Shown here: in pieces, positions 16,734 to 58,895 of the stretch
Layout of the letters: the number at the start of each line of letters is the position of its first letter
How positions within the stretch are numbered: position 1 is the stretch's first letter
NCBI GenBank assembly: GCA_963930775.1
Contig: OZ005690.1
Span: 11,372,411 to 11,436,410 of the forward strand
Source of the DNA: Cliona cf. orientalis
Taxonomy: Eukaryota; Porifera; Demospongiae; Clionaida; Clionaidae
DNA length: 64,000 bases
Reading direction: 5' to 3'
Program-made: the position numbers and the translations under genes
The notes under the pieces: model-generated
Told to the model about the DNA's origin: nothing
Database searches by the model: none
What the model saw: the letters and a program-made list of their open reading frames with translations, nothing else

Positions 16734-17144
16734 TAGTCTATCAAGCTAGACCCCTTTTTCGCCCGACGACCTTTACCTACTCTCTCCACACGCAAAAAAA
16801 GGGTCTAGCAAAGGTCAGGTTTAATCAAATTTTGTCTGGCCAATCAGATTCAGCTTTTGAAATTCATGCAAGCAATTTATGCGTGGGTGTAGAGTAGCAG
16901 TTGGCAAAAACAGGCACTAGACCAGGCCTACTATGCTTTTAGTGTTTTTAGAGCTTACTTTCAAACATAATAACATCAGACTGGGCCATCTGCTGCTGTT
17001 CTCTTGCTTTTGAGCCAAGCGCGTACTCGTATGGCTTCACCTAATGAATTACATTCCAACACTGACCTTTGCTAGACCCTTTTTTGCGTGTGGAGAGAGT
17101 AGGCAAAGGTCGTCGGGCGAAAAAGGGTCTAGCTTGATAGACTA
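16734..17144. mobile_element. TAGTCT-ended element, 9-bp target duplication
   Basis: The ends TAGTCTATCAAGCTAGACCC and GGGTCTAGCTTGATAGACTA are perfect inverted repeats, and the similarity continues inward for about 85 bp. TTGGCTCCC is duplicated at 16725-16733 and 17145-17153. It shares terminal TAGTCT...AGACTA and 9-bp duplications with the elements at 42223-48097 and 47158-47252, so it is probably mobilised by the same kind of machinery. Confidence 0.75.
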
Positions 17145-21484: not shown

Positions 21485-23990
21485 AATAATATTGTCTAGC
21501 CTGCTGTAAGATGGCACATCTTTCACAGCAAGACTCAGCTAAGATGGCACATCTTTAAGCTGAAAGAGAATAAGGGTATGGGTACATGTATGTGTGGATA
21601 TTTTGTGTGTGTGGAGCTTGAGCCTGTTTGTGTCTGGTTGTTGGTTCTGAGCGAGCACATAGTTATTTAGCCTGGTGTAAGATGGCACATCTTTCACAGC
21701 AAGACTCAGCTAAGATGGCACATCTTTAAGCTGAAAGAGAATAAGGGTTTGGGTACATGTAGCGTAAAATACCAATTATCGGCACCTATATTTATCCCGC
21801 GCATATTTATCCCGCTATGTATGGATATTTTGTGTGTGTGGAGCTTGAGCCTGTTTATGTCTGGTTGTTGACGAGCACGTAGTTATTTAGCCTGCTGTAA
21901 GATGGCACATCTTTCACAGCAAGACTCAGCTAAGATGGCACATCTTTAAGCTGAAAGAGAATAAGGGTAGCGTAAAATACCGATTATCGGCACGTATCAA
22001 TTATCGGCACCCGCGTTTACGGCGAATTTTACGGGAAATTACAGACCCGTTTGCGGTCCTGGAACAAAAACTCGCGCTATCTCTCGAAAGGAAGTAAACA
22101 GGACGTTTTAAGGCCAACAGTCGTTATGTAGGCGTGGCAACGGACCCATAGAGCCCGAGAAAGTGACCTTCGACCCCCAGTTTGCTAGCTGAATTTTAGG
22201 GATCGAGTTTTTAGCTATTTTGTTGTCTGGTAGTCTTCACTGAGTCTTAAAGTGGCTGTTTATGAGTTCTATAGCTTCAGACTATTGCCAGGAGCTAGAA
22301 TTTAGCCTACAAAGTGTCAGACAAACGCCAATCATATCTAAGAGAAAATTTTGTGTATTTTTGGATGTAATTTCGGCTATTATGTAGCGAGTGGAAAGAT
22401 TCGCTCTCTTTAAATGCTACTGTTAATGGAGCACATCGAAAGGAACCTGTGGAATTTTCTTCAGAATTTTCCAAGTAAGTAGTAATTGTAGAGATACACG
22501 AAAGCTCGCTGGTGCCGATAATTGAGTATAGGCAGTACTAGGGGGGGCCGATAATACGTACGGGGTGCCGATATCTGATTTTTTGATACCTTGGCTATAC
22601 TGCCCATAGTTCTGTGAAGAACTGTATCTATAGCCTTGGATTTGAGATGTAGTATATTGAGTTAAAAACCTATCCTTTGGTGCAAGAACCATCATCATAG
22701 GTTGTTCTGCTGGTAAGTTATGCGCGGGACAAATATAGGTGCCGATAATTGGTATTTTACGCTATGTGTACATGTATGTGTGGATACTTGTTGTGTGTGT
22801 GTGTGGAGCTTGAGCCTGTTTGTGTCTGGTTGTTGATTCTGAGCGAGCATGTAGTTATTTAGCCTGCTGTAAGATGGCACATCTTTCACAGCAAGACTCA
22901 GCTAAGATGGCACATCTTTAAGCTGAAAGAGAATAAGGGTATGTGTACATGTATGTGTGGATATTTTGTGTGTGGAGCTTGAGCCTGTTTGTGTCTGGTT
23001 GTTGATTCTGAGCGAGCATGTAGTTATTTAGCCTGCTGTAAGATGGCACATCTTTCACAGCAAGACTCAGCTAAGATGGCACATCTTTAAGCTGAAAGAG
23101 AATAAGGGTATGTGTACATGTATGTGTGGATACTTGTGTGTGTGTGTGGAGCTTGAGCCTGTTTGTGTCTGGTTGTTGATTCTGAGCGAGCACGTAGTTA
23201 TTTAGCCTGCTGTAAGATGGCACATCTTTCACAGCAAGACTCAGCTAAGATGGCACATCTTTAAGCTGAAAGAGAATAAGGGTATGGGTACATGTATGTG
23301 TGGATATTTTGTGTGTGTGGAGCTTGAGCCTGTTTGTGTCTGGTTGTTGATTCTGAGCGAGCACGTAGTTATTTAGCCTGCTGTAAGATGGCACATCTTT
23401 CACAGCAAGACTCAGCTATGATGGCACATCTTTAAGCTGAAAGAGAGTAAGGGTATGGGTACATGTATGTGTGGATACTTGTTGTGTGTGTGTGTGGAGC
23501 TTGAGCCTGTTTGTGTCTGGTTGTTGATTCTGAGCGAGCACGTAGTTATTTAGCCTGCTGTAAGATGGCACATCTTTCACAGCAAGACTCAGCTAAGATG
23601 GCACATCTTTAAGCTGAAAGAGAATAAGGGTATGGGTACATGTATGTGTGGATATTTTGTGTGTGTGGAGCTTGAGCCTGTTTGTGTCTGGTTGTTGATT
23701 CTGAGCGAGCACATAGTTATTTAGCCTGCTGTAAGATGGCACATCTTTCACAGCAAGACTCAGCTATGATGGCACATCTTTAAGCTGAAAAAGCATAAGG
23801 GTATGGATGGATGTATGTGTGGATATTTTGTGTGTGTGTGAAGCTTGATCCTGTTTGTGTCTGGGTGAGTGATTGTGAACGAGCATGTAGATGGATATCT
23901 ATTATAGCCTGGTGTAAGAAGGCACATCTTTCACAGCAAGACTCTGCTAAGAATCGTATGGCACAGTTAACATATTATAGCACATCTTGT
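21485..23990. repeat. ~172-bp minisatellite array
   Basis: The landmark TAAGATGGCACATCTTTCAC starts at 21507, 21678, 21898, 22870, 23039, 23213, 23384, 23561 and 23732, with a degraded last copy at 23914. Where uninterrupted the period is 169-182 bp, the variation coming mostly from a (GT)n run. Each unit has two ATGGCACATCTTT copies. A partial unit also lies at 20840-20950, left of the inserted MITE. Confidence 0.9.
21970..22762. mobile_element. MITE GCGTAAAATACC inside the minisatellite
   Basis: GCGTAAAATACCGATTATCG is mirrored by CGATAATTGGTATTTTACGC with TA on each side. A deleted relative lies at about 21762-21816, also within a repeat unit. Related ends (GCGTAAAACC) occur at 54269-55066. 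Confidence 0.8.
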
Positions 23991-26371: not shown

Positions 26372-27181
26372 GACGGGTTGCCTTAATGTGATTCATGACA
26401 TGAAAGTTCAAGCCACATGAACATGCGGCCATGATTAGGAAAATCAATACCATCAAGGCTTGTTGCTATGGCAATGAATGTTTTTTAATATGTGACCCTC
26501 CACGAGGAAACCAAGCATAATGCGCTGGATATCAATCTGAGATACAGGCCAAAATAGTTGCCCAAGTTGATAATTATCGTTTTTCACTTTTTGGTATAGA
26601 TCGATAGAGGAATCATTCCTCTACACAAAAATATGCTTCGTAGCTTCTAGAACGCTATACTTACCGAGTTATGGCTCGAAGAAGTCGGCCGTGTAGCTTA
26701 CATTGATCGTCCATGATACGGAGCCGTTGCCATAGTTGCAGCTAGGCAAGCACGGCAGCTGCACAGAAAACACTCTCCAGTCACTTCTTTCTTCGATTTT
26801 GTGTACTAACGATCTATAGACACGCTTATCTTTTCGTTCTTTTCCGGCTGCTGCTCTCTTTCCAACGTTTGGCAGCCATCTGGCTCTTTGACTTAGTGGG
26901 CGGGGCCATGTATTTACCATAAACGGCGAATATACGGACTTCCGGGTGCAACGTACGTAGCAATGTTCATTACAATTTTTTGCAATACTTTAGGGGTTAT
27001 TGCATAAGGCGGCCTTATGGCGCATGGCCCTATGGCACTGTGGCCTTATGGCCTTGTGGCCTTAATGTCCATATATGGGCATTATGCATTCTCTGTGGTC
27101 TGCAGCCCGCGCGCGGGAAGAGCGCGTAGATCAGTCTTGTGCGGAGTGAGCTACGTTGCAGCAACCGTGAGCACACGGGCC

Positions 27182-30100
27182 ATGCAGATCATGGATTCAT
27201 CAACAGAGCTAGAAGTGAGCAGCTGCAGTGACGGGACAGACAGTGATTACGGAACCGCTAGTTTTCTGGACAATAGAAGGTGAGCGACCACCATCTCAAT
27301 TTGAATATGTGGCTGGCTGATACAATACAGTATTTGAAACGTGCTTGATCGTGTTGATAGTACTAGTACATTTTTTTTCCTGTACAGGTTATTAAGTGAA
27401 GCAAATGAGAAAAGGTTCGAGCAAGCACCGCGCAAACAAGCAAAAAAGAAGCCGCGTAGTCACAAGACGGACTACCACTTTCCGAAGCCGATCTGGCCAA
27501 AAAAGCCTGAAGAAGAAGGTTGCTACTCCAGACACAGGGAAAACAGTAAAGGAAGAAGAGTAAGCACGTTGCAGCCATGCATGCAACTAAGCTATGTGTG
27601 CATCCAAGTCTAATCAGCCATTTGGGGGGGGGGGGGGGGGGGGGGGGGGGAATTCTGACCTCTAGCCAACACCATAATTTAATTGTGTGCATGTGGGCAC
27701 TGTTGGGGGGGGGGAGCTATTAGGGTAGTATTTAATATATCATAATTATGGCATCTAGTCCAGTAAGCATGACATTATGAGGGCGGATTATTTGTCTGTT
27801 TAATAGTTCAGTATAACATTACGTCGTGTACCTTTACTTGTTCACTTGCAGCATTGATTACCTATTGACCCAAGTGAAATCATCCTCAAAAGCTGTTCCC
27901 AATCAAGGTATGCTAACATGCAGTCATAGTAAAATATTGCATGTACAATGTAGATCAAAGAAGCAGCAACCACTGTCTGCCCCTACTCTAGGGCTGCTTC
28001 AATTATTTTGGATAGGGCATACATGTACCTACACCACAGCTGGGCAGCTATACCTGCAAGGTGTTGGTGTACAAAAGGTGACTGTCAGAATACTAACTGT
28101 AGGGTAGTGGCTCCAGGGTGCTTAATTCAGTTAATGGCTTTCAGTTTGGATAGTTACATAGTGGCAGGTGCCTTTCCTACTACTAGGTTCATAGTGACTT
28201 GGACTGTGTTACAGCATTATCCTGGTTCCCTTGGAAGTGCCCTTCTCTGTATAATATATGACTTCTACTATGTGTTTGTGAATGTGCATGGATAAGATGT
28301 GCTACCAGTGCTATATTGTTACTGTAGGGATTCCATATTACATTGACCTCACTCAAGATTCAGATAATGAATCTCACACCAGCCTGTCTCCAGCTCCTGT
28401 AATAAGCAGTGATGAGTCACCAGCAGATAGTGATGAATCATCCAGGTAAGGTGTTCAATGGTGCATGCATGGCAATGACAGAAGAGATCGTTATAATATT
28501 TTTTGACTAGGAGTGTAAGTGACCCTGCCTTTAGCATAATTCAGGCAGGGTAGGCATAATTATCCTCATGTTTAGAATTACCATAGTGTCCTGGGCAAGC
28601 ACCCATGCACTGCGTTTCATGGGATCAGTGTAGCAGCCTCCATTACAAGTGTCCATGCGGGCCAAAATTATGAGTTATCGTAGAAGTTTTCATGTACATA
28701 CATGTATAATTTTAATACAGTGAATCGTCCAATGATTCCAATGTTGAATACTTCAATGGAGATATTGAACTACCGATAGTATCGCGTCAGAACCGCATAC
28801 GTACATCTTCACTTCATACTGTTAGAGCAATACTGGATACACCACGAGATCTAGTTAGTACAAAGCATCCAACTCAAATAAATATCAATTGTGCTTTTGT
28901 CGTTGATGCATCTAAGTTGCAAGATTCTGGTGATACAAAATGTGATGACTGTGGTGCCTGGAAACAGACCAAAACAGCAACTACCTCTCTCCACATTAAT
29001 CATGACGAAGATGGGAGTGTAGCGTCTGTTAAATGCTGCCCAAGTACCAGTAAAAAGAGATATTACACACTAGTGCGTCGTCACTACACCTGCAAATCAT
29101 CGCCTGATTTATCCAGACATATATCTATCCTATCAGATCCTTCTGGCCAGCAAAAACCATGTCAATTTATACAATATCGCTTTTCTGGTATAGAACATTC
29201 TGTTGTTGTCAAACCACATGGTAATTCAAAAAAGAGGAAGAGACCATACAAACGTACCTGCCCAAGTACACTAAAAGATTTAGAAACAGAATTGAAGCAA
29301 CACCCTCCTAAACGAGCAGTATTTAGAGTGGAGCAGAAGAGGGGCGGCATTCTTAGTGCTTCATGTGTGGGAGATTTGCCGAGAAATTCACTACAAGCCT
29401 CTCGAATACGATGTAAGAAGAAAACTTATCAAGAGGCAGGTGTATCTAATCCAAATGATCCCTTGCAAGCTCTTGTTGTCAAATTTAAGGAAGAGAGTAG
29501 AAATCCTGATCAGTATGTACAGTCGATTCGTCTAGTTCCAGATCCAACCATCGTTCTGTTCAATGATACCCAGCTTAATGATATGGAACAATTTTGTGCA
29601 TCATCTGATAAAGCTAGCGTGCTTGGTATTGATGTTACTTTTAATCTTGGACGATTCTATGTTACACTATGTACATACCAAAACTTTAAGGTAGTTAATG
29701 AGCGAGGAAGGCATCCAATAATGGTCGGACCAGCTCTTATTCATTCATCTAAAGACCAGTCCAATTTTGACATACTTTTTCAAGAAATTACAAACCGAAA
29801 GCCAGCACTAGCCACATCACTGAGAGCTTATGGTACAGATGGTGAACAAGCACTCTCCAATGCTGCTGCCTCTGCTTTTCCTTTTGCCACACACTTAAGA
29901 TGTGCAAACCATTTGAGAGATAACATTACCACTCATTTGCGTAAGCAGCTCCTTCCAGAAGCTGTAATAAAGGAAGTGCTAAGTGATACTTTCGGTACAG
30001 CCAGTGAAAAAGGTCTTATTCATGCGTCTGAAAAAGAATTTGATGATAAAATGAAATTGCTACAGAAAAGATGGGACTTGCTTGAGAAACAGCACAAGGC

Positions 30101-31784
30101 TACAGGTGCAGCTGTGGTTTTCAAATGGTTTAGACTACATGTTGCACCCATAATTCGTGAAAACATGCGGTGTGAACTGCTCCGTGATCTTGGGCTAGAG
30201 GAAGAGAAATACACTCAGAATAATTCAGAATCTCTGAATGCTTTAGTGAAACGATATGTTAATTTTCAGAAGCAAGATGTGTTCCAGTTTGTAAATGATC
30301 TTGAAGAATGTGTTCGAGAACAACAAAATGAAGTAAACAAAGCTACCATAGGACTTGGAAGGTGGACATTATCACCCAGTTGTAGCCATGTTAGTCAGAA
30401 CACAAGTGATTGGTTTCGTTCAATGTCTCATATTGACAAACAGAATGCTATCTCAGCACTGCAGACCAGCTCAGCGATTTCTTCCAGCTCATCTACATGT
30501 AATAGTGGATCATCCACTTCTTGTCCATCTTCAGAAAGCTCACTATCCATGCCATATACCATCTTGACAGAAATTCTTTCAGATGGTCAGTTAGAAGCCA
30601 TGTGGACCAAAGCATCACGTTTATTGACAGAAAAAAAGGTGATTAAGCCACCAGATCCTAATCCAAAAACTAGGTGGGTTGTTAGTGACACAGCGTCATC
30701 ACCCCATGTCGTGACAACCATGAAGGCTAACCAGCTGAGATATATTTGTGATAAGCAGTGCATAGGTTGGAAAACTCATAACATATGTGCTCATTGCATT
30801 GCTGTTGCAGAAGACAATAATGAGCTGGAACAGTTCTTGCTTTGGTTTGTTTCCTCCAAAGGAAAGGATTGTAATTTGACTAATGCTGTCTATCATGGAA
30901 CCTATAAACATGCAGGATCAAAGAAGCCACCAAGAAGGAAGTATGGTGATGTTACCCACTTACCGGTTGACCACAAAACTGATAGACTTCCCCTTGGTGA
31001 CATTTCTAATGTACAGCTCCAGGCAATACATAATGATCATTCATATGCCAAGGCACAGTGTCATGCTTCACAGCAGAGCACAGATTCATCAAGCTTGGCT
31101 GGACCAGTCATATGTCCCCCAGGAAATGCAACGGAACACTGTGTGACAGGGTGTACAAGTAATAATACCATGAAAACAGGACAAAATTGCATTACCGTTG
31201 ATTCTGTAGGTGCAATGCAGCCTCTTCAGCTTTGCTCAACTGCGCAGAGTGTTGGAACTGTTAACATTGGTACAACTACATCACAGTCGCTTCTTCCTTC
31301 CCTTTCAGCCACACTAACGACACCCTTGGCTTCACTTTTATCCTCTATTGTGCCACACCTCAACCTCCAGTCAAACTCCCAATCATTTATAATCCCTGGT
31401 ACTCCTAGCAATGCCACACCAAGTGCATATCAACAGAAACCTCCTACTGTGAAATCTAATCAGCCATTTTTCGTTGCTATGCTCACTAATCGAATTAAAA
31501 AATGCTCTGGCTGTGGTGCACTATTTCGTGAGCTCAGTGGATTGCAGTCTGACTACATTTTGGGTCATATGGAACGAGACTGGTTTCCACAGAATGGTCA
31601 GTGGCAAATAGGAAAACTCCAGAACAAATATTACCATCTGCGAAGGAGCTGTGTTCTTCAGCGATGCCCCCTGTACAGCATTCCTCGTGATTTTTGCTCG
31701 ATGGAATCAAAACTGGACACTCTCTTGCCTCCTTCTGTTCAAGGAATTGTTTTCAAGGAGTTTGGAGTCAAATTCAATCCTTAA
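27182..31784 (+). CDS. MULE-type transposase with SWIM-like zinc finger (MULE-1)
   Basis: Exons 27182-27279, 27388-27559, 27852-27907, 28328-28445 and 28721-31784. The last exon is open for over 1000 codons. A DDE core is visible: Asp at 29631 (GIDVTFNLGRF), Asp at 29838 (GTDGEQALSNA, then CANH), and Glu at 30228 (NNSESLNALVKR). A SWIM-like finger follows (ICDKQCIGWKTHNICAHC, about 30740-30810), then a Ser/Thr/Gln-rich linker and a C-terminal Cys/His domain (KCSGCGALF ... YYHLRRSC). Exons 3-5 agree in phase; exon 2 read in the frame set by exon 1 leaves phase 0 while exon 3 needs phase 2. Exon 2 is open in a second frame that would fit, so a 1-nt change or a missed exon is likely near the N terminus. 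Early residues are acidic and Ser-rich. An earlier in-frame ATG exists at 27017 within the TIR. Confidence 0.8.
27624..27650. repeat. Poly-G tract in MULE-1 intron 2
   Basis: An unbroken run of 27 G. Its true length is probably uncertain in any assembly. Confidence 0.9.
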
Positions 31785-32201
31785 CTATACTTATTATTAT
31801 CGATATAGTTTAGTAATCATGGTCCACTGGACTACATTTGTTGTTAGATATCAATAATATTATTCTGAATCGTGGACTACATACATTGATTTGATATTCA
31901 TGACCAGCTGGATGATAATTACGGTAGCTAATATTCTGCGCTACCGCTATGCGCATTATTTAATAATTTCGCGTAAGGCCATAAGGCCATAGGCCATAGG
32001 GCCTTGCGCCATACGGCCGCCTTATGCAATAACCCATACTTTAGTACGGGCGATCCGGGTATATTTTTGCTCATATCTCCATGACTACACGGGCTAGAGA
32101 CTTCAAATTTGCTGGAGCAATAGTTCAAAGGTTGTAGTTGGTAATGGTGGCCTTAACTCTTTCCGCGCATTATGCTTGGTTTCCTCGTGGAGGGTCACAT
32201 A

Positions 32202-32838: not shown

Positions 32839-33438
32839 TATATATTATTCATTTTTTAGACTTATGGTTTAGGTCGACGTTAAGTATAAAAGTCTGTTGA
32901 GACTTCTGTGGATGTTTATAGTAGCCTCAGTGAATTAACGTCAGCCTAAGCCATAAGTCTAAAACCACTGTCAATTGGAAATTATTAACTTTAGACTTAA
33001 TTCTCTGGCCGATATCAAGTATAAATCTCCATAGAGATGTATATTCATTTTTTTAGACTTATGGTTTAGGTCGACGTTAAGTATAAACGTCCGTTGAGAC
33101 TTCTGTGGATGTTTATAGTAGCCTCAATGGATTTTTATACTTAACGTCAGCCTAAGCCATAAGTCTAAAAACCACTGTAAATAGGAAATTATTAACTTTA
33201 GACTAAATTCTCTGGCCGATATCAAGTATAAATCTCCATAGAGATGTATATTCATTTTTTTAGACTTATGGTTTAGGTCGACGTTAAGTATAAAAGTCCG
33301 TTGAGACTTCTGTGGATGTTTATAGTAGCCTCAATGGATTTTTATACTTAACGTCAGCCTAAGCCATAAGTCTAAAATCACTATAAATAGGAAATTATTA
33401 ACTTTAGACTAAACTCTCTGGCCGATATCAAGTATAAA
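32839..33438. repeat. Tandem ~200-bp hairpin units, left block (3 copies)
   Basis: GACTTATGGTTTAGGTCGAC starts at 32859, 33056 and 33263. Each unit has a TIR-like pair (TTAGACTTATGGTTTAGGTC and CCTAAGCCATAAGTCTAA), so the repeated unit is itself a MITE plus a tail ending CTCTGGCCGATATCAAGTAT. The third copy stops at TATAAA, where the 19-kb element starts. Confidence 0.9.
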
Positions 33439-34145
33439 CACTGTAAAAAACTGGCAGTATAAGCTAGTATATGTATGGTAGTATATGTTTGTTATTCAGC
33501 TGTTATAAGTCCGCTTATATGTAATAGTGACATAAGCTTGTTTTAAGCTAGCTTATTATGGTTAGAAGGATATAAGCTGGAGCCAATAACACTCTTATAT
33601 TGTTAGAGGGTATAAGCTGAAGTCAATAACACTCTTATTTCAATCTCATATGGTATATGCTTGCTATAAATATATGCTTATATCAAACCCTTACTTACTA
33701 TCAGTACCTGCCCCTCCCATTCCCTGCTGGTCCTAGCCCCTCCCTCTCTCTCCAGCTGGGAGGGGGTGGGGCTAGGTTATAATTTCATCGTGGAGCTATG
33801 ACATCATTAAAACTCGACATTAATACCTTCACGAAGATCTTTCTTGCATTGACGCTACGAGTACTGTCGATGTCAGTCACTGACTGTCACAGAGAAGATA
33901 TCTGATCACCGCCAGTGATCACGCGGCTGCTTTGCCGAGTCAGGCTCGATCCCGCCCGAGTACATACCCCGAGTCGCCGGGAGTGTATAAACGGTGGACT
34001 GGAACGGTGGACTGGAACAGTGGACTGGAATACTGGACTCAGTATTATACTGCGCATGCGCATTCTGGCAACGTAAAGCACGTACCTCTCCATGTATGAT
34101 ATCGCTGCCTCGTGGTGTTTTACAAAATCTGGCTCAATCGTGATA

Positions 34146-37100
34146 ATGGAGGATTATAGCTCACCACGGCGTGAAGGAGACTGTGCATCTGTCCCTATCT
34201 TGATTGCAGATTCGCCAGAGGATAGTCCCAATGACTTACTAGGCGCGGTGCAACGATCTCCGTTTAAGACTGTCAGTGATCGAGGACGAAAGGACTCTTT
34301 CAGGTTGGTGAACACGTGAAAGCAATTTTTTTGGTTTTTGAGCTCTACATTTATATTTGTATAGGAAGCTAATCGAAGAACTAAGCGATCAGAGCGACCT
34401 CAGTGATGACGATGACTCAGCACCGGCTAACCTTGTCACAGGCGTTTCATTTGAAGCAGACGTGTCCGCCGAGCCCTTTCAATCGTAAGTTGCTAGTTAA
34501 TCAATCAGTACCAGCAAATTATAATATTTGTGCATGTAAGGTATATAATTGGCATTGACATGCCTCTTATGATTATGCTTGGCCTACACAGCATGATAGG
34601 ACCCAAGGGTAGGATAGCTAGTTTTAGTATGGGGAAGCACCCCAAAGGATTGTGGCCTGTCATACTATAAGTGGTCCCCCCTGAAAGCGGTCCCCCTGGA
34701 CTGTCCATAGCAACTATGCATAGTCCCCCTGCCATTTACGAGAGGGGTTAGGGGCTAGGTTTCAGGCATAAATGGTTATCAGGGTTAGTCTCAAGGTTTG
34801 TATCGCAGGGTTAGATTCCAGAGTCTGTATGGCAGGGTTAGTCTCCAGGGTTTGTCCTGGGGGACCAAATACGGCGCAGTGGACAGTCTGGGGGGACCGT
34901 TGACAGCGTGACAGGCCAGAGGAGATTTGGCAGGGTCAAAGGTCAGCAATAACCCCTGTAACGAGTTTTTTGTACTTTGACTCTGAAGTTGAACACTAGT
35001 TTACTGAGTATTTTTGTATCCTACGTGGCTTGGTGCATGCGCTGCTGGTATGTACTAGTCCTCATGCATGGGAGGGGCTAAGGAAAGGGTATTGAAGCTA
35101 TAGTTGTACTAAACCAGTTTATTGTATACAACACCAATTAAATGCAGATTGGATGGATTTCCTGTTTATGAGGTGCCACCAGAGAAGTATGCAGCAGAAC
35201 GAATTATTAAAATTTTGCTGGATCCAAAAATTGATGATAGAAAGATATGCAAGCAGCGCCCACTTAACATTGAGTCAAGTAGCACGTTTGTCATCGATCT
35301 GAACTCTCTAAAGGATCCTGATGACGTCAAAAAGGATAACTTTGGTGTTTGGCATCATAATGGATCTCATAACCAGACCTTTGAATGCTGTATCAGTTCC
35401 AGTGGAGATGTGCAGATTGGATACAGTGCCTTTAGCCCACCTAATGCTCAGTGGGAGCAGTATTCTCTGCGCAGGCTTCATAGCAAGCACCCAACTAACT
35501 GCAGATTCAAACGAATGTTGTGCTTCATAACAGGTATATAGAAGTATGTTGTAAGAGCCCTTTATAAATTATTCTTGTATAACTTGATGCCATATACGAA
35601 ATATGTTTCACCATGCAGGAGATTTTCATGTATTTTGCCACTTCACTGGTGAAATTTTTATCTTACTAATCATTTATTGTCCTAGATTAAAATTGCATAG
35701 AGGATATACGACTTTTACAGCATTGACTAAAATGCTCCACTAACTTTTTCTGCCAAATTTTTATCCAGCAAAAATTTTCATGTATATGGTATTGCTAAAA
35801 TCAACACAAGAGTGCTATCCTTGTGGTAGTGTAAACCATGGTGCAGCTGTGTACTTTGTACTTAGTAGCATGAGTGTTAAGCAAGCCTCACCACATTAGG
35901 ATTAATATGTTATGCCAATGTAGATGTCATCTGTGCATGAATTGTCCTTTTTATTGTATTGCAGATTCCAAAGCAATTCCACATCACCTGTGCTTGCTCG
36001 TCTATCACATTCCAAGAGATTTTGTACCATTTTCATTACCTCACGGAAATGCAAAATCTTCTAAGCCATTTATCCCAACATGGCCGAGCACAATGAAAAT
36101 GATCAAAAACGAAATACACCAGAGTGGGCCTAAAGATGTAGTGGCATCTGTGTCGGCACAAGTCGGTGGTATTCTTCAAGCATACGCTCCTGGTGAACTT
36201 CCTCGGGGGGAGAGACAAGCAATAAATGCAAAGCGCTCTCTAAAGTTCAAAGGTGAAGATGTCGACGAATTGTTTACCATGATGCAAAAGTCAAAGACAG
36301 GTGACAGCTATGTACGAGACATCAAGTCATCGCCTGATCCAGCTATTATTATTGCCTCTGATGGACAGCTGGATGATCTCGTAAGATTTTGTGCATCATC
36401 AGCAGGTGTTGAAACTTGTATTATGACGGTTGACCCAACATTTTGTCTTGGGGAGTTTGAGTGTACCCCCATTACCTATCGACACCTTCTAGTTGTTACC
36501 CGAAGGAACAAGACATCCCCTGTGTTCATTGGACCAACTCTCATCCACTACAGAAAGAATTTCGCATCATTTTTATTCTTTGCTTCATCTCTGGTGTCTC
36601 TAAGGCGAGAACTTCAGTGCTTGCGATCGTTTGGATCTGATGGAGAGAAGGCTCTTGTGGATGCTTTTGTTCATGAGTTCCGGTTTGCAATTCACCTGTA
36701 TTGCTCAATACATGCACGCAATAATATCAAGAAAAATTTGAGGGATCGCAGATTCCCAGAAAGTGTAGTGAATGAAATTGCCGATGATGTGTTTGGCAAG
36801 CAGGTGGGCACAACCTACTGTGAAGGTTTAGTCGACGCTGAAAGTGAAGAAGTATTCTACCAAAGGCTGGAAGAGAAAAGACTGCTTTGGGAGAAGAAAG
36901 AAAAGGAGCACCCTGGTTGTTCTACTGGGTTCTATGATTGGTTTTGCCAGTATCAGTGCGAGGTGATTGTCTCTGGAATGCTGAGACATGTAAGGGAAGA
37001 TGCTGGCTTAGGTGTACCACCATTACCTTTTACAACGAATGCAAGTGAATCCCTCAATGCTGTTCTAAAGAGAAAGGTCAACTATAGGAAGCATGAACTT

Positions 37101-38417
37101 CCTGAGTTTGTGAAGCATTTGAAAGAATTGATCGATGAGCAGCAGCGGGAACTTGAACGTGCCATAATTGGCCGGGGAAAGTATGTGTTTAAGGACGAGT
37201 ATAAACACCTTGAGATATGTGAAACAGACTGGTTTCGGATGACTAAGCAACAGAGAGAGAAACACATTCAAAAGATTGCTAATGCTAAATTGAAGTATGA
37301 AGGTGGCCCTGAAGATGATATCAATCAACCACAGTCAACTTCCCTTGCCATATCTGCTGAGCAATTTCATTCTGATGATTTGAAGATACCCCTAAGTTCC
37401 ATAAAAGGCATATGGACGAAAGCAGAGGAACTGCTAATACAGACAGATTCTATTGTTGCTGCACCAGGTTGTGAAAAAGGAAGCAAGATGGTTAAAAGCA
37501 GGAGTGGAAAGCGACCCCACCTTGTCAAATGTGGAAAAGGAGGAAGAGTATCATGTGACAGTGACTGTCCGAACTGGAAAGCTCTCGGTATTTGTTCACA
37601 TTGTGTTGCAGTCGCACAAAGTAATTCTTGCTTGCACGATTATCTCAACTTCTTCAGGAGATCAAAGCACCTCCCTAGCACCACCCAGCTGCTACTGACT
37701 GGTCTTCCAGGAGGTGTTGGAAACAAAGGGAACCGTGTATCACGGAAAAGAAAGCGTGTGGAAATCCAGGACCGTGTTGCATTAGCTTCAAATGGCAAAG
37801 AAAGTACAAAAAATTTACGACCTGAAAATTCTTCAACAACTAAAACAGTGACCTCGTACGACAGTAGCACTGCTACTGCATGTGGATACATGGCAAGCTC
37901 TCTACCTTACGATCCAGTCCTGCCTGGCCCATCAGGAGGTTATCTTCCTTATAGCCCTGGTGGGTACCCACAGCATCAACCACATCCACATCCTATGTCA
38001 ATGCAATTTAATACAGGAATTGGAGACATCCGAGTTCAGTCGCCTGCTCATTGGTCAGCACCGTATTGGCCACCTCATCACCCATACCCCTCTTACACTG
38101 AGACTAACTTTCGTCTTTGCTTCCGTACAGGAAATATCAGCGTTTGCAATGGGTGCAGAAATAAATTTGACAAAAAGGCAAACCCTCCATATGATATCTG
38201 TGTGCAGCATGAAGAGTGGCGCTCATACACGTCACCCACAACAAATTTACCTGATTCAAGATTTGGAAATGCTTATTATCATGCAAACCCAGCATGCATT
38301 ATGAGCAAGTGGCCCTCATTCCACCCACAGTCATTGTTGATCTCCGATGAGGTGAAAAATCAACTGCAAGCAGATCATAAATCACTTTTGTCTTCGGTTT
38401 TTGGTATCTATCTTTAA
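34146..38417 (+). CDS. MULE-type transposase with SWIM-like zinc finger (MULE-2)
   Basis: Exons 34146-34303, 34365-34484, 35148-35533 and 35965-38417 join in phase to 1038 residues with no stop, so this copy appears intact. DDE core: Asp at 36432 (TVDPTFCLGEF), Asp at 36639 (GSDGEKALVDA, then CSIHARNN) and Glu at 37047 (NASESLNAVLKR). A SWIM-like finger VSCDSDCPNWKALGICSHC follows (about 37550-37610), then a basic, Pro/His-rich linker and a C-terminal Cys/His domain (VCNGCRNKF ... YYHANPAC). The N-terminal exons are acidic. The same order occurs in MULE-1, with clear but distant sequence similarity (SESLNA, EQQ.E, IG.G blocks). An in-frame ATG also lies at 34092. Predicted to cut and paste its own element in the nucleus. 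Confidence 0.87.
34652..34918. mobile_element. MITE in MULE-2 intron 2
   Basis: TGGCCTGTCATACTATAAGT at the left is mirrored by GACAGCGTGACAGGCCA, with GGTCCCCC/GGGGGACC and GGACTGTCCA/TGGACAGTC pairs inside. Confidence 0.7.
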
Positions 38418-39370
38418 TATTATTATTCATGACAATGTTTCTACTATCCAAGACTACTATAATAATATTATACTTCAACTGTGTAATCTTAAATAGACTG
38501 ATTTTTGGCCATACTGTAATGTAATAATCATTGAGAAAGTATTGTGTTCAGCAATTTCGCCAATGTTTTCTGGAAGAGTAGGTAAAGGTCATCAGGCGAA
38601 GAGGTTGATAACCTGTTCTAACAGGCACTTCAAGGGTCGAAGGTGAGTCCAGTGTTCCAGTCCAGTATTCCATTCCATTAGTCCAGTCCACCGTTTATAC
38701 ACTCCCCGAGTCGCCCCATGTTTTGAGCTACGTCTACCAACCATTGTCATGATATCCCGGCCATGCAGGCGTCAATGACGGTACGATCCAGCCCGATTCC
38801 GCCGGAAAGCCGGCTGATTACATTCATTAAGTATGCCATCTTATTGTGAATAGGTGTGCTCTTAATAGAAATACCCTCTGAGTACCTGTCCCTGCTTTAC
38901 AAGATGATCATTCTCTCCCTGGATATTGTCGAACAGATCATCTGAGACTCCAATCTCCATGGTATGTAGAATTATTATACTACGTATACCAGTATTTATT
39001 GTAGTGCACTCAGATGAGCCAATTTGGTAATGACTAGCCAGCGTACTTTTTTAATAATCACTGTCTGAGATCATACAGATCCCGATCATTGGATAAATTT
39101 ATGTGACTTGTTAATCGAGTCCCCCCACTATCACCCTCCAGTGCTAACAATATTTTAATAATGAGAGGCATTTTCTCCCAGATGAGTGTCACATATTCAG
39201 TGCCTATAGAGAAGTACGAATGGCAGTCTGAAAACACAAACACTAATAATTTATGCATCTTGAAACATATACAGCATATTATTATCATTTAATGCGGGGG
39301 GGGGGGGGGGGGGGGTCCTCATTCATTCATTCATCCTGGTTTCAGCCACTCTAATTCTACTAAAAGGCTT

Positions 39371-42065: not shown

Positions 42066-42448
42066 GTCAGACCGCCTAGTGAAGCGGTAACTGTCAACCC
42101 CACAAAAATATTTCGGAGCTTTAAAAAGCCTTGTGGGCTATCTATTGTTACTATCTTACCTCGCTTGGACGCCTTAGAAGCGAAGGGCTCCACGCGTTCA
42201 ACGCTAAAACTCTGTTTTCGCTTAGTCTCGTTCCCAGACCCTCCTTCTGGTGGGTGTGGCGAGAGAGAGAGAAGGAGGGTCTGGGCGATAACCCCGGGCG
42301 GAAGTGTCCAGGAGGAATGTTGTGGTTACACAATAATTGAGCGAGTGTGTGGCTTCTGTGGTCTCGCATCGCGCACGCGCATACATACAGGAATGTGTAA
42401 TTCCCCGCCCACGATCTTCTGTACGCGCAAAGAGTTGCAGCGACGACG

Positions 42449-45400
42449 ATGGCGTTTTGTAAGGTATGCAGTGAAGACATCTCTTCGGACAGGCGTGCAA
42501 GGCTTAAGCTGAAGGGTACTGCCGCTGGTGTCGACGTCGTGTATTCTGAATTGTTTGACAGCCTCCTGGAGAGCTACGCAGATCATCCATTTTCCAGCTT
42601 GCATAACTACCTGTCTAAAGAACCAGCATTTGTCTGCAAGGCCTGCTTTGGTGTTTTCAAAAAATACTGCGATGTTAAAGCTAGCCTCCAGAGTCTGAAA
42701 CAAAAGCTACAGTCATCATAATATGGACAAACAGCTAGAAGTGTGAGTTACAGATCAACACAAATTCAATTTTAACAGTGCATGTACATGTATGTACAAC
42801 ACATCAATTTTGTGCTGTGTGGAGTGATTTAGTTTATTACTATTAAACTGTATGATGCACTACACAGTCTGGAGTGGATGCTTCCAGGAAAAGGACTCGT
42901 GATGACACTATGATGGGGGGAGAGGGTACAGAGTCATCGGCTAGAACAGAGGTTAGTGACGGGAGTGAATTATTGAGGTATCGTTGACAATATAGTATGT
43001 TATGTTTTGTAGGCAGTGTTTCTATTGGTGTTACATGTTTGTATGTACATTGTTATTTCATGTACTAGTCGGAAGTTGAAGAAGGTCCTCCTAGAAAGCA
43101 GTCTTGTTATGGCAGTACTAGCACAACCGGAGAGCCCTCAGCTCGTAGGAGGCTGAACTTTCCTCCAATGGTTGCTCCAGCTACAGCTTCACCACCTGTA
43201 ACAGTGAGTGGCATTGCAACAACAATCAGCTGTAAATTACGGCATATTGTCCTAAACTAATTAAGGTCGTTGTCAGCTACTCAAAACGAAGCAAGTATCA
43301 TTACCTCACCAGCTCCCTTAAGAAGCTTGGACGGTATGTTGGGCGTGGAAAGAACAGTTCGATTGCTCAAGCTGCTGTGGAAAATAGGACCCTTCGCCCC
43401 AAGATTGCTGTGAAGCTTGCTGCACACGTACGGCGACACGAGATCGTTCCGATTTGTTCTGATAACCACGATTCCCTTCTACGGCTCAAGTCAAGCCTGC
43501 AGTTGAGCACTTTACGTGGGAGAGTGTGTGGCTTGAGCTCCAGAAGAATGCTCCCATTCTGATGTCCCTCTTGACAAGCCTGCTACCACAGTCCAAGAGA
43601 AACAGTGAAGCATCAAAACTACCTCTATGCATGTGTGCCAGTATTCTTCTAAAGCTCCAGAATCCCAAGATGAATCTTGTCCAGAGTATGGTGTCGCTCG
43701 TCCTAAAGGCAGGGCATGCTACAAAGCAGGTATGGTAAAATGATCCCAGCTACAGCTAGATTTATGGTGTTTTTTGTGTTTGCAGACGTTCACTAGACTT
43801 CAAAAGCTGATGGTCTCCCTATCTCATTGTGGTATGATTTCATTAATGGACAATGTCGCTGAGGGGCATGACGAGGAGATACTGGAATGGCAGGACGAGT
43901 TCAGCCAGATGCTTAGTGTAGAAATAAACAAGCTCAGCACTAGTGAGGTAGGTATTATGACAAGGAGTCGAATACTTTCGTTTCCACATATATTACACGA
44001 TACATTGTTATGCAGAAGGAGACAATGTATGTTCTCACAGTCTATTGCCCCTCCTACACTGTCTTCAAGCTTACCAGCAGAGGCAATGGAAACAGAGGAG
44101 TTGATGGACACAGAATCTACCTTCAATGCGTCAGACTTTGCCTCACCTGTCCTGAACACTCCTGAAGCACCACAATTCTCTCCAGTTACACCATCAGCTT
44201 CAACTCCAGAGCAAGTGTCTACACCAGTGTCTCCATCAACTTCAAATCAACACATACCACCTCACACATCAACACCTGCAGCTCCAGTTACTCCAACCAC
44301 TACACAAGAAGAGCCAACTGGACATGGGGGTAAAAAAACTTCCAGTAAGCATGGTGCAAAGTTAGTGGGGGATAATGTTGATAAAAACTTGAGACCAAGG
44401 CACCAGACAATCGAAAAACAGACTCAATCTCTTCATTATTTTAACTGTTTTGCTTGCCTGGACCGTGTAGACCTTTCTGGATTAAGTGATCTTGCACCAA
44501 TCGTGGACATCAAGTCCATAGATATCAAAGTTGTTCTTCCCAGTAGCGAAGATCTTGATCAGCTACTCTCAAATTTTGCAGTGATAGCTACTAGAATTCT
44601 AGTGGAGCATGTGCCAGCTCTAGCAAAATTCGCTGGGATAACAACTGACCACATCAAGCATGAACGGTACGAGGAAATGTCAACAAAATCTAAAGTGGTA
44701 TGTTGCATTGATGTTGCTCATTTAGATGTTTGGGTTAACTGATTTCACTGCAGGTACCTCTTGGCATCATCATGAAGAATGAGAATCACCTGGACGAAAT
44801 GGTCGACATACTCACCACACTCCACCCATATGTTCCACTTCATGAGGTCCAGTTAGCAACTAGTGAGGCAGATGCACAGGTGGATGGGACAGCTACGGCT
44901 GAAGTTCTACACAAGGTGCTTTTTGGAGGTGATTTATTGACAGCAATTCGAGCTAAAGGGGCGCAACGGATAAGACAGAACTCGGAGCATCCTGTTGGAC
45001 GACTAGAAGGGTTCATTCCAGTTTGTGAAGACTGGCACGCGAAAGTTGTTTTGATGGAGGTATATTATCATTAATTTATCTTGTAATAATTGGCTTAATA
45101 ATGGTATCTTTGTATGCAATAATTATTTAATACTGTATTAGGTGATATGGACACGTCTTTATGGCAAAGACTCGTATGCAGAAACTGGAACTCTCCTTCA
45201 GCTCAAATCCCTAATCAACCGGTCTAATGTTCGCCCCACTGTAAAGAAAGATGTGAATGCTGCCGTGGATTTCTTACAGGTTGGTAAATACTCCCACCGT
45301 AAACAATGATTAGACTGTAATATTTGATACACTACTTTTACAGGTGATCTTGGAAGGCCATGTCCTTGCCGCATTTCTGCAACATTTTAAGTTGTCGACA

Positions 45401-46180
45401 CTACAGGATGTAGAGGAGGCACCGTTTATGCAACAGATTAAAGATGCAAATGATAAAGGCACCACACTAGAAAACCTGGTTCTAGGAATGCTAAAAGAGT
45501 TTGTGAATATTGGCACTTTCCCACAGTCAGACGTGGCGGAAGACGACGGAGTCCTAGCCTATGCCAAGGAGGTGCTTTCTCTCGCTCTTTTGTGGGCTGA
45601 ATTTGAAGATGCCATAAGAGAAGGTGATGGGCTCAGAGTTATCCGGTGTTGGAAGTTTTTCTTGCCAATATTCAAGGTCACTAATCACAAAAATTATGCC
45701 ATTGGAGCTCTCAATCTACTGATTCAGTACAATTTTTTGCTGTCTCCAAGACAACGAGAACAACTTGTATGGTCTCGCTTCATCAATACAAGGGGGAAGC
45801 CTGGAGAGAACAAGTCGTGTGACATTCATATGGAACACCTAAATCGGATCGTGAAGGCAGCAATTGGAGGGCTGAGTTCTAATATTTCTCCCAAATCAAT
45901 CACAAGGATTGGGAGGTGTGCAGGAGTTTTGATGAAAGTTTGCAACCAGTTTGACTCTGTATCAGCAGTTGTACAAAGATCCGGTAAGCACGGCGGTGCA
46001 TCTTTGGCAAAAGATGTATCAAAAGTAACGGAAGAGCTTAACAAAGTGAAAGTTTTCGAACATGTAACGGGAAGAATGCACACCTCTTTTCCACAAGTCA
46101 AGAAAAGTCTTGGTTCTAAGTTGAACATGGACAAATTTAAAACCTGGTTCAATGCTCAACTAGTAGACATATGTATGTAA
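42449..46180 (+). pseudogene. DUF6589-type transposon protein, nonsense plus frameshift
   Basis: Nine exons, all phase 0: 42449-42742, 42868-42951, 43069-43203, 43266-43729, 43786-43947, 44041-44697, 44754-45059, 45142-45279, 45344-46180; about 1025 codons. The N terminus has paired Cys motifs (CKVCSEDISS, then CKACFGVFKKYC). A Pro/Ser/Thr linker follows, then a C-terminal half resembling DUF6589: FGGDLLTAIRAKGAQR, RLEGFIPVCEDWHAK, YNFLLSPRQREQLVWSR, CDIHMEHLNR. DUF6589 proteins occur in eukaryotic DNA transposons; catalytic residues were not assigned. Lesions: in-frame TAA at 42719-42721, and exon 4 is 464 nt with a frame switch near 43470-43505 (net loss of one base). All nine splice sites remain good. 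The stop could also mean a shorter first protein; the frameshift argues for decay or sequence error. Confidence 0.8.
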
Positions 46181-46217
46181 TCATTTTTTATTATCACAAT
46201 CACAACTATTGATAAAG

Positions 46218-47987
46218 TCAAACCAACAAAAAAACATCACCAATTATAACACAATTACCACAACAACAACTTTTTGCGCAAACATCACAACAACGACATG
46301 GCATGCATGGCTTGTCAATGCGTTCAAAGTTATCGAAACCACAAAATAACATATGTCTTCGACATTCGTCTGACTTTTGGCAAAATTGTTGCATGGATTT
46401 GGATACAAGATGTCTGTCCCCTTTGCAGTGCATCAGCAATGCACAAGATAGGTAGCCATCTCTGCCCGCTCGCCCTGTTTGCTGAATCATGGCCTCCACA
46501 TCCGATGGTGCACCCCAAAGTATGGTCTGTCTCACATCTTGACAATCGAGACCCATTCCAAACGCAATGGTGGCGATGACGACTCTTAATTTACCTTTCG
46601 GGTCGCAAAAGCTCTTTATTATGGTCTCCTTCACACTGGCCTCCGTACATTTGCAGTACATGTCCACAATTCTGCTCTTTGCAAGGTCAGGGCTCCCGGG
46701 TGGTTCGGTGAAGTTATCGCCGAGATAATAACGGAAAACACCGTACATTCTGGCACATTCTGTATACCGCTTGCAAAAAATGATAAGTCGGGGCATACTC
46801 GTGCGGAGAGCGATTAAGGCTTCAGAGACAACTTTGACTAAGTCCTCCAGTGTACTTTTCTCTTTGACGATGTACATGATGTTTTTCTTGTGTGGTGATG
46901 CTGAAATAATCGCTGGGTGATCCATGCACAGAGTCGCAACTATGTCAGAGCGTGTGTCACTGGAAGCAGTTGCTGTGAGAGCCATGATGTTCACATCTGA
47001 GGGTATCAGTGCTCTTACTTCACCCAGCCGCTTGTACTCTGGTCGAAATGATTCTCCCCTACAGCCAATCGAGACATTGACAAGTTACGGACTGTACAAC
47101 CTGATTGACGTATGATACTTTTACAGTTATGTTGAGGGACTACATCATTGATGGGATTAGTCTCGAATCCAGACCCCTCCTATCTCCGCAGCGTGCTGGT
47201 GATGCAATACATCCAGCGCTGCGGATATAGGAGGGGTCTGGGTTCGAGACTATGATGGGATATTACATTGAGGTTTGTGTACACACTTTTAAAGTCTTTT
47301 TTTGAGTAGCTGTCTTTATGCTGAGGATAAATACTCTTTCATGCAATGGGGATCTACTTGATGTAAAAAATATCAATATTAACACCACTCAATGTTGCAC
47401 GATAGCACGGGCCAACTACATTGTACAGTTCTCACCATTTTGTAATGCAGTGAGCCTCATCGATTACGAAGGCTACGAGATTTTCTCTGTATGTGTTTGA
47501 CAGAAGCATTTCCCTCCACTGAGGGTTCAGAAGAAGCGCCTCTGGACTGATGTACACGACCTGGTAACGTCCACTCTCGACCCCCTTCATGGCACTTATG
47601 TCTTGTTGCAGCTCGCCAACGAACTCCGCCAATAATCCACGTGTGCACACTCTGTTCCATCATCAGAGCAGTGAGTGGAGACACACACACCACAATCGAT
47701 GGATCCTTGCCTGCTCGCAGACGGTCGAATACGGTTGGAAGCAGAGCGAAGCAGTATGACTTCCCAAAACCAGTTGGCAGCGCTACAAATACGTCCCTCC
47801 CGCTCGCAAATTCCCGTATAGCCTCACGCTGCTGATGTTTTAAACTCTCCAGGCCGAATACTTCCATTGCTGCGTCGATCGCGGCGTCGATCTGCTCTTT
47901 ACTATACTTCGCCATGTCACTTTCACGCTCGCTTCCAAGTGAGCGGTTTCGCACATTGTACTTGAGGCCAACTTTCGTAATCAACAC
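46218..47987 (-). pseudogene. RecQ-like DNA helicase of the same transposon, frameshifted
   Basis: Two exons on the minus strand, 47987-47436 and 47058-46218, joined through a Trp codon; the start may be ATG at 47915 (MAKYSKEQ) or 47987. Motifs in order: LKHQQREAI (motif 0), LPTGFGKS (Walker A), SPLTALMMEQ (Ia), VIDEAHC (Walker B) followed by the RecQ aromatic loop, MALTATA (III), IFCKRY (IV), ATIAFGMGLD (V), QTGRAGRDG (VI), then a Cys-rich tail (CMPCRCCDVCAKSC) in place of the usual RQC zinc site. No HRDC domain; about 440 residues, short for RecQ. A frame change near 47655 (net +1 or -2) splits exon 1. The 377-bp intron contains the TAGTCT element at 47158. Predicted to unwind DNA during transposition; inference. 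Confidence 0.85.
47158..47252. mobile_element. 95-bp TAGTCT MITE in the RecQ intron
   Basis: TAGTCTCGAATCCAGACCCC is mirrored by GGGTCTGGGTTCGAGACTA, with only about 30 bp between arms. TGATGGGAT is duplicated at 47149-47157 and 47253-47261 (9 bp). It shares the outer TAGTCTCG...CCAGACC with the host transposon, so it is likely a non-autonomous derivative that jumped into its own parent type. Confidence 0.85.
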
Positions 47988-48106
47988 CTGTCGCGGAATT
48001 TCTGCCTCCTGGACACTTCCGCCCGGGGTTATCGCCCAGACCCTCCTTCTCTCTCTCTCGCCACACCCACCAGAAGGAGGGTCTGGGAACGAGACTAGTT
48101 TTCGCT

Positions 48107-52493: not shown

Positions 52494-53440
52494 AAATCTC
52501 CATAGAGATTTATATTCATTTATGGTTTAGGTCGACGTTAAGTATAAAAGTCCATTGAGACTTCTGTGGATGTTTATAGTAGCCTCAATGGATTTTTATA
52601 CTTAACGTCAGCCTAAGCCACAAGTCTAAAACCACTGTAAATAGGAAATTATTAACTTTAGACTAAATTCTCTGGCCGATATCAAGTATATATAAATCTC
52701 CATAGAGATGTATATTCATTTTTTTAGACTTATGGTTTAGGTCGACGTTAAGTATAAAAGTCCGTTGAGACTTCTGTGGATGTTTATAGTAGCCTCAATG
52801 GATTTTTATACTTAACGTCAGCCTAAGCCATAAGTTTAAAACTACTGTCAATTGGAAATTATTAACTTTAGACTTAATTCTCTGGCCGATATCAAGTATA
52901 AATCTCCATAGAGATGTATAGCTATTCATTTTTTTAGACTTATGGTTTAGGTCGACGTTAAGTATAAAAGTCCGTTGAGACTTCTGAGGATGTTTATAGT
53001 AGCCTCAATGGATGTTTATACTTAACGTCAGCCTAAGCCATAAGTCTAAAACCACTGTCAATTGGAAATTATTAACTTTAGACTTAATTCTCTGGCCGAT
53101 ATCAAGTATAAATTTCCATAGAGATGTATATTCATTTTTTTAGACTAAGTCTTACGGTTTAGGTCGACGTTAAGTATAAAAGTCCGTTGAGACTTCTGTG
53201 GATGTTTATAGTAGCCTCAATGGATTTTTATACTAAACGTCAGCCTAAACCATAAATCTAAAACCACTGTCAATTGGAAATTATCAACTTTAGACATAAT
53301 ACTCTGACCGATATAAGTATACAAATCTCCATAGAGATGCATGTATGTGCGTAGATAAAGTTCAATTTTAGACTTATGACTTACGCCGACGTTAAGTATA
53401 AAATTCCATTCCAATTACAAAGCTGTGCAACTAATACACT
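52494..53440. repeat. Tandem ~200-bp hairpin units, right block (5 copies)
   Basis: Units begin near 52515, 52727, 52937, 53143 and 53370; the first starts mid-unit at AAATCTCCATAGAG, directly continuing the broken unit at 33438. The last copy is diverged and short. Confidence 0.9.
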
Positions 53441-57301: not shown

Positions 57302-58895
57302 TGCAACAGTGGTTTGCAGAACAGTGGGCAAGTGGATTTAGCGGAAACGGACGAAAACGGAAACGAAAACGAACGCGAAAACGAAAACGAAAAGGGAAAT
57401 GGTCGTCAAGAAGGTTACAGTATACCGTATAGCGGGAAATTTTCGTATGGTGCTAATTTTCGTATGCTCCATCCCTTATACGAAAAAAAAAAACTGCGAA
57501 AATTTGAACGTACGGATTTTTTTTTCCTTTCGCGCGTGACCTTTGACCTATACGCGCCACACGCGGTCGCTAGCTGGAGGTGCTAAATGCAAGGCTAGCT
57601 CACTGAATGTCTCTTTATCGATTCTTTGCCAAGGCGTTGAAACGAAGTGACCTTTCTGATTCCAGTGGACGATTACGATCAGTGATGCAAGCGTTACCGT
57701 ATACCGCACGTAAGTGAGAGCGCTACCAGCTGCGCATGCGCGCAATCTCCCGCAGCAAGCATACGAAATTTAAAAATACGAAAATTTATCCTTAAGGGTG
57801 TTTTGGCCGATCATACGAAAATTAGCACCAACGAAAATTTCCCGCTATACGGTAGGTCGACGAACTTATAAGTCTACAAGATAGTGTGGTGCATCCAGAG
57901 ACTTGTCAAGGCAGGCTGCTCATATCCTGGGCCAACGTACACTGAAAGTTTGCCTGTCTGGAGTCCGGCAGGACCTTCCTGATCTTTGTAGCTATATTGC
58001 CAGGCGGCTATAGCTAGCTATCTGACAGGGGATTGAATGTCTATTCGTCTATGATAATTTGCACTGTCAAATGCAGTTACCGGTATTATGTTATGTCAGA
58101 TGTTAACTTTTTAACTTTATTGATAAGCCAGGGGTGGGTAGCTAGTAACATGCTGGTAGCACGCACGCCATGAGAGTCATGGCCCACCTAGCTTTTATAA
58201 GCTGAGTGAATCTGGGAGGGCACCCCGGGCCTGGGGATGAGGCTGGACTAGATGCATCACTGACGCCCTGTCAGGGAATTCTACAATCGCCCAGAGTTAG
58301 TAGATACCTTCAACTAAATACATGTAGCTAGCTAGCTTTATCATAGGTCAGTAGAGGACTACCAGATGAGGTCAAATATTGTTGAGTAGCTATCTGGTCA
58401 CGGTTCTGTAATACTAGTATTGAAGTAATCATGAATGATGACAGTACTGTAGCTACATAGTACTGTTTAGCCATGAATAGGGGTGACTCTAAGTGCTCCA
58501 GATCAGCTCAGTATCAGTACGGCTGCATAGCTGAGTCATTTTTCAGCTCATGTTGGAAGGCAGCTAGCTAGCTAGCTAGCTAGCTACCTGCGGCTAAATG
58601 CAAAGACCAGGAAGGTCCTGCTGGACTCCAGGCTGGCAAACTTTCAGTGTATGTTGGCCCAGTGCACTACATAATATATAGCTGGCATGAGAATAGCCTG
58701 CCTGTGACATGTCTCTGGATGCACCACACTACTTTGCACGATAAAGCAGCTTACAAGATCGTCGACCTATACCACAATGTGAACCTTTTTGACGACCCTT
58801 TCCTTGTTCGTTTTCGTTTCCGTTTTCGTTTCCGCGTTCGTTTTCGTTTTCGCTTTCGTCCGTTTCCGCTAAATCCACTTGCCCCAGAACAGTAG
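57302..58895. repeat. Fold-back with (GAAAAC)n arms
   Basis: CAAGTGGATTTAGCGGAAAC then GAAAACG repeats at 57328-57400 are mirrored at 58800-58880. The left arm is interrupted by the MITE at 57423-57854 and resumes as GGTCGACGA, mirrored at 58757. Confidence 0.65.
57423..57854. mobile_element. MITE, TACCGTATAGCGGGAAATTT
   Basis: TACCGTATAGCGGGAAATTT is mirrored by AAATTTCCCGCTATACGGTA. TTTTCGTATG motifs recur inside both ends. It splits the left arm of the fold-back at 57302. Confidence 0.85.

Follow-up and report, generated by a model that had tools for sequence, protein, structure and literature searches.

A transposon pairing DUF6589 with a RecQ-like helicase in the sponge Cliona cf. orientalis, probably of the AcademH lineage

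To which group of DNA transposons does an element belong that carries a DUF6589 gene and a RecQ-like helicase gene and duplicates 9 bp of its target? The question is raised by a locus in the sponge Cliona cf. orientalis (assembly GCA_963930775.1, contig OZ005690.1, positions 11,372,411 to 11,436,410 of the forward strand; this 64,000-nt stretch, analyzed as a whole, is called the window, and coordinates refer to it unless a locus is named). The element spans 42223-48097 (5,875 bp). Its ends are terminal inverted repeat (TIR) arms with 100% complementarity, which a preliminary description had put at ~95 bp and which measure exactly 93 nt each, and the same 9-mer, GTTTTCGCT, stands on both flanks, giving the 9-bp target-site duplication (TSD) claimed there. 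Exactly two convergent genes lie in between, as also claimed: a DUF6589 gene on the plus strand and a RecQ-like helicase gene on the minus strand, their stops 37 bp apart (Table 1). We conclude that the element very probably belongs to AcademH, the helicase lineage of the Academ superfamily.

That the element was inserted as a unit is supported by related empty sites. When the left and right flanks were joined with a single TSD copy, 40 scored genomic matches (201 candidates) were obtained at 90-97% identity, the best spanning 174 of 176 letters. The junction was read in one of the 40 (L013; the other 39 are unread at this point), where it aligned gap-free with a single target copy, GTTTTTGCT, a single 1-nt gap lying elsewhere. 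The element thus landed inside one member of a dispersed repeat family, with duplication of 9 bp. Within the window, a scan for any 9-bp duplication with a 12-bp TIR (at most one mismatch, at most 7 kb apart) was passed by six places, this element included; in 20 mononucleotide shuffles no place ever passed. Of the remaining five, two are small elements tipped with TAGTCT, and three have GGG tips, with a MULE protein in one of these three.

The 93-bp TIR has six exact matches in the 217-Mb genome, corresponding to three full-length elements that are 98.8-99.4% alike in the pieces compared. The sister copies sit in different flanks, and two of the three near-identical copies have 9-bp duplications, that of copy C4 being GGATAGCAG. 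Aligned pieces of all three extend through a nested 95-bp mini-element in the helicase intron. In the window copy, 8 bp of helicase exon 1 and 1 bp of a transposase exon that both sisters have are missing, so that it probably produces neither protein in full; small indels distinguish the other copies as well. The preliminary description of a self-contained element is borne out. The reading frames it listed are not all intact, and the window copy looks broken in both genes.

Is the helicase a regular companion of DUF6589? The genome contains 138 DUF6589 matches, some of them pieces of one gene, so this kind of element is abundant. We compared the best 90 of these 138 places (including the three copies of the window family, and with some near-identical copies among them) with 105 of 138 helicase places. 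A helicase was found within 3 kb downstream in 86 of the best 90, on the opposite strand in 86 of 86 cases and at a median gap of 260.5 bp. The helicase is thus a regular component of DUF6589 elements and was not captured by chance; the refutation foreseen in the preliminary description, absence of the RecQ gene from most elements, did not materialize. The 48 places left out score lower and, judged by coordinates, include second gene pieces and a divergent lineage. Four of them were fetched (L070-L073), and in the open reading frame (ORF) list, read by eye, L070, L071 and L073 have helicase frames convergent to DUF6589 and L072 has a C-terminal helicase frame; L073, the one of the four so tested, matches Pfam DEAD at E 1.5e-9. 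In L071, a KDZ transposase ORF (L071:6203-7501; PF18758, E 4.8e-8) adjoins the DUF6589/helicase element. A chance enclosure, between inverted repeats, of two repeats with no relation to each other or of a pair of host genes could be argued from the opposite strands of the two genes and from nothing beyond, and this explanation is refuted by the related empty sites, the sister copies in other flanks and the convergent pairing at 86 of the best 90 places.

We then asked whether the duplication length is constant among relatives. The outermost 22 bases of the TIR, with C or T allowed at one position, are found 107 times in the genome, compared with 0 for a reversed control. Among 24 TIR-matching loci (L007-L030), 17 contained two tips separated by 150-1,700 bp, representing 15 separate elements that resemble miniature inverted-repeat transposable elements (MITEs), and seven contained no such pair; where a locus had several tip pairs, the pair having a duplication was counted. 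Eleven of the 15 have a perfect 9-bp TSD and two a 9-bp TSD with one mismatch, while L015 lies inside a simple repeat with a duplication of at least 14. In 13 fetched loci whose DUF6589 genes are more divergent, we looked for end pairs consisting of TAG[TC]CTC plus a TIR perfect over 12 nt or more. Five loci gave one: four (L062, L070, L072 and L073) have a TSD of exactly 9 bp, and in L068 the end pair lies in a G run that leaves the length ambiguous. Short pairs with other tips that emerged from broader searches (e.g., L064, L069) were judged to be chance. Where end pairs are clear, the duplication is thus nearly always 9 bp, with full copy C13, MITE locus L012, L015 and L068 as exceptions, and the second refutation foreseen in the preliminary description, copies differing in duplication length, did not materialize either.

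The element has the TIRs that are a defining feature of the AcademH lineage, and it encodes a helicase, as Pfam and Protein Data Bank (PDB) matches indicate. Published work gives TSDs of 9 or 10 bp for AcademH and of 3 or 4 bp for AcademX, a difference that seems tied to helicase versus nuclease (PMC10045372), and the 9-bp TSDs of the window copy and C4 fall within the former range. AcademH was described as a helicase lineage of Academ, with a title reporting animals and fungi (Kojima 2020, Mob DNA 11:15), and DEAD plus Helicase_C domains in fungal fusions have been ascribed to AcademH, KolobokH or Helitron (PMC10799480). AcademX shares the superfamily and differs in its nuclease and its 3- or 4-bp TSD (PMC10045372); no nuclease or XPG model matched in nine scanned stretches (Pfam). 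The puzzle raised in the preliminary description, a 9-bp duplication at odds with the 3-4 bp expected of Academ, is therefore resolved by the split of Academ into AcademH and AcademX, the shorter length applying to AcademX. Our comparison with AcademH, which covers the helicase and the TSD, shows no difference; the convergent gene order and the TIR motif described below stand outside the comparison with the original description.

Several observations weigh against this assignment. The link between DUF6589 and an Academ transposase is indirect and does not come from sequence, and the four XPG_I matches in the genome all lie far from DUF6589 places (coordinates compared by eye), so that no AcademX relative emerged to anchor the superfamily. 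One of the three full copies, C13 (C13:6472108-6477991), has no matching TSD, perhaps through recombination between copies, and L012 has none either. Eight of the 13 fetched loci (L061, L063, L064, L065, L066, L067, L069 and L071) gave no end pair, some of these elements overrunning the fetched stretch or being truncated, and four of the best 90 DUF6589 places had no helicase in the pairing search.

A separate superfamily, in which DUF6589 and RecQ were paired independently of Academ and the 9-bp TSD is coincidental, would fit the lack of an established link to a named Academ protein, as well as the status of DUF6589 (PF20231), which Pfam lists as a family of unknown function and of which we found no mention in the 5.39 million papers searched. 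We consider it unlikely: a helicase with a 9-10-bp TSD is the stated AcademH signature (PMC10045372), and no new superfamily is needed to account for the element. The proposal of a distinct superfamily or subgroup is accordingly narrowed to a subgroup that is real but, on present evidence, already named, and the match to a described family exists at the level of the lineage.

KolobokH, also with RecQ, bears on the same question. KolobokH elements duplicate TTAA, whereas the window family has 9-mers of varied sequence. KolobokH transposons combine a RecQ helicase with a DDD/E transposase, and in Kolobok-1_CCri the helicase lies on the complementary strand; KolobokH differs in that its helicase follows downstream of the transposase domain, and it is reported only from fungi (PMC9587614). 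The earlier remark that RecQ helicases are unusual in cut-and-paste transposons needs qualifying, given that they are also described in KolobokH (PMC9587614) and that AcademH has a helicase (PMC10045372). Could a KDZ (Kyakuja, Dileera, Zisupton), MULE or Kolobok element instead have captured a helicase? KDZ elements are likewise eukaryotic DNA transposons, with TSDs of 8 bp in the Dileera family Zisupton-1_PGr and 7 bp in two Kyakuja families (PMC12730594), a MULE element in the window has a 9-bp TSD, and KolobokH carries RecQ. This explanation is disfavored and highly improbable. Six stretches of the transposase region were scanned at E up to 1: two matched DUF6589, one gave a weak unrelated model below the cut-off and three gave nothing, with no KDZ (PF18758), MULE (PF10551) or any other transposase model matching, whereas the same Pfam library recognizes the KDZ protein in L071 and the MULE protein in the window.

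What, then, does the DUF6589 gene encode? Pfam matches to PF20231 lie at 44739-45074 (E 1.7e-10) and 45314-46177 (E 3.2e-30), and the joined frames stay open across GT-AG introns at 45060-45141 and 45280-45343 in a splice test; upstream exons are placed roughly. GGD and DWH are invariant in 14 of 14 relatives picked for open frames. Among 20 relatives, 19 retain the Glu of MEHLNR and all 20 the Asp that precedes it by four residues, and an upstream DNx[ND] motif is present at 31 of 36 loci matching ORF 43744-44742, several of which are copies or overlap and so are not all independent. From this conservation of acidic residues, we propose a catalytic triad of the Asp of GDNxD, the Asp of DWH (or GGD) and the Glu of MEHLNR. 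A DDE-type transposase is the most likely identity of the protein. Outside the source genome, the 20-sequence alignment yielded 100 pattern stretches in viral contigs and 34 in genome contigs, none confirmed as relatives. A single solved-structure match to the same alignment (E 0.31) was judged to be chance.

On the minus strand, Pfam matches to Helicase_C (6.9e-12) and DEAD (6.9e-10) identify the helicase gene, and the best PDB sequence matches of its C-terminal exon are RecQ, WRN, BLM and RECQ1. The features of the element are collected in Table 1.

Table 1 Features of the transposon and its target site (window coordinates)
Feature	Position	Strand	Basis or remark
Left TSD copy, GTTTTCGCT	42214-42222	.	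One copy in related empty site
Left TIR, 93 bp, tip TAGTCTCG	42223-42315	+	16-bp internal stem, 42233-42248 / 42270-42285
Likely first transposase exon, MAFCKVCSED..., two CxxC motifs	42449-42721	+	Splice sites approximate; no Pfam match above cut-off
Transposase exon region, two overlapping frames	43263-43738	+	Window copy lacks 1 nt relative to two sisters
ORF over further transposase exons; GDNVD from 44368, candidate first catalytic Asp	43744-44742	+	
Transposase exon in DUF6589 match; GGD and DWH, candidate second Asp	44751-45059	+	Pfam, relatives, splice test
Transposase exon flanked by GT-AG introns	45142-45279	+	Splice test
Last transposase exon; MEHLNR, candidate catalytic Glu; stop 46178-46180	45344-46180	+	Pfam, relatives, splice test
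Helicase exon 2; Helicase_C, Cys-rich C terminus	46218-47058	-	
Helicase intron, GT-AG; contains nested element	47059-47435	-	Placed by eye
Nested 95-bp foldback mini-element, tips TAGTCTCG/CGAGACTA	47158-47252	.	Own 9-bp TSD TGATGGGAT (47149-47157, 47253-47261)
Helicase exon 1; Walker A (LPTGFGKS), DEAH	47436-47915	-	Frame broken near 47649
Right TIR	48005-48097	-	
Right TSD copy	48098-48106	.	

How might the two proteins act on the ends? The TIRs contain an 8-bp inverted pair, CCAGACCC...GGGTCTGG, ~12 nt inside the tip. We aligned 15 ends or mini-elements, taking a single end from each family; for L061, L063, L065, L067 and L069 the end was located from the tip motif at about the expected distance, without a TIR pair. 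Standard pairs fill 94.4% of 107 cells, and three motif pairs changed on both sides, a count equaled in 1 of 500 shuffles and inflated by the relatedness of the ends. Sliding the partner by 1-3 columns lowered pairing to 14-53%, in a comparison that favors the unslid version since the arms were defined from the window sequence. The count of further pair types was no higher than in shuffles (500 of 500 as high). As exceptions, the motif is absent in L061, its 5' arm is partial in L062, and four sequences mismatch at one pair and two at another. Folded as single-stranded DNA, the window TIR has a z-score of -3.6, and the scores of 13 ends range from -0.7 to -6.2; among 13 single ends, the best stems of six (L061, L062, L065, L066, L067 and L069) were equaled by 8-76 of 100 shuffles. 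Because shuffles equal these six stems and z-scores reach -0.7, the data establish the motif pair itself and not a hairpin in all families. Elsewhere in the window, a 411-bp MITE (16734-17144; tip TAGTCTATCAAG, 9-bp duplication TTGGCTCCC) carries the same inverted motif in its TIR, both partners being altered at one pair. The motif can act either as a palindromic binding site for the transposase or as a hairpin, and its presence with compensated changes in most TIRs compared is possibly a new detail.

These features suggest the following scheme, in which the DDE chemistry, the cut-and-paste movement and the role of the helicase are inferred. The transposase would most likely bind the TIRs, perhaps at the paired motifs, cut the element out and carry out strand transfer at a 9-bp staggered target, and host gap filling and repair would then yield the 9-bp duplication. 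The RecQ-like helicase would most likely aid excision or repair by opening or remodeling DNA at the ends. A further link between motif and helicase is speculation, and we hold it as a rather doubtful idea: the motif, kept by some compensated changes across families of two lineages, may present a palindrome (hairpin or cruciform) on which the helicase acts, RecQ opening or resolving self-pairing ends.

The window holds other features in addition. A 5,042-bp element at 26994-32035 (TIR GGGTTATTGCAT, 9-bp duplication ATACTTTAG) contains a 1,022-aa ORF (28716-31781) with a MULE transposase domain (E 1.7e-7), and a 4,728-bp element at 33979-38706 (TIR GGGAGTGTATAA, 9-bp duplication CGAGTCGCC) contains an 847-aa ORF (35874-38414) with no Pfam match at E up to 0.1. 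A 1,559-bp TIR element at 57326-58884 (GGGCAAGTGGAT; 9-bp duplication CAGAACAGT) has no ORF of at least 150 aa. Long tandem arrays occupy 22763-23952, 32846-33438 and 52520-53339, the latter two having a nearly identical unit of ~207-210 bp, 19 kb apart. A 273-aa ORF at 12931-13749 matches an OTU-like cysteine protease (E 3.3e-11).

In conclusion, the locus presents a clean case of an AcademH-like family that moved recently and has related empty sites, in a genome rich in such elements. It ties the unannotated Pfam family PF20231 (DUF6589) to a transposon that carries a helicase and makes a 9-bp target cut, and this tie would let annotators label DUF6589 genes as likely transposases. The TIR motif pair suggests a function for the helicase that can be tested; if this idea is true, the AcademH helicase would gain a definite substrate, the self-pairing ends of the transposon.

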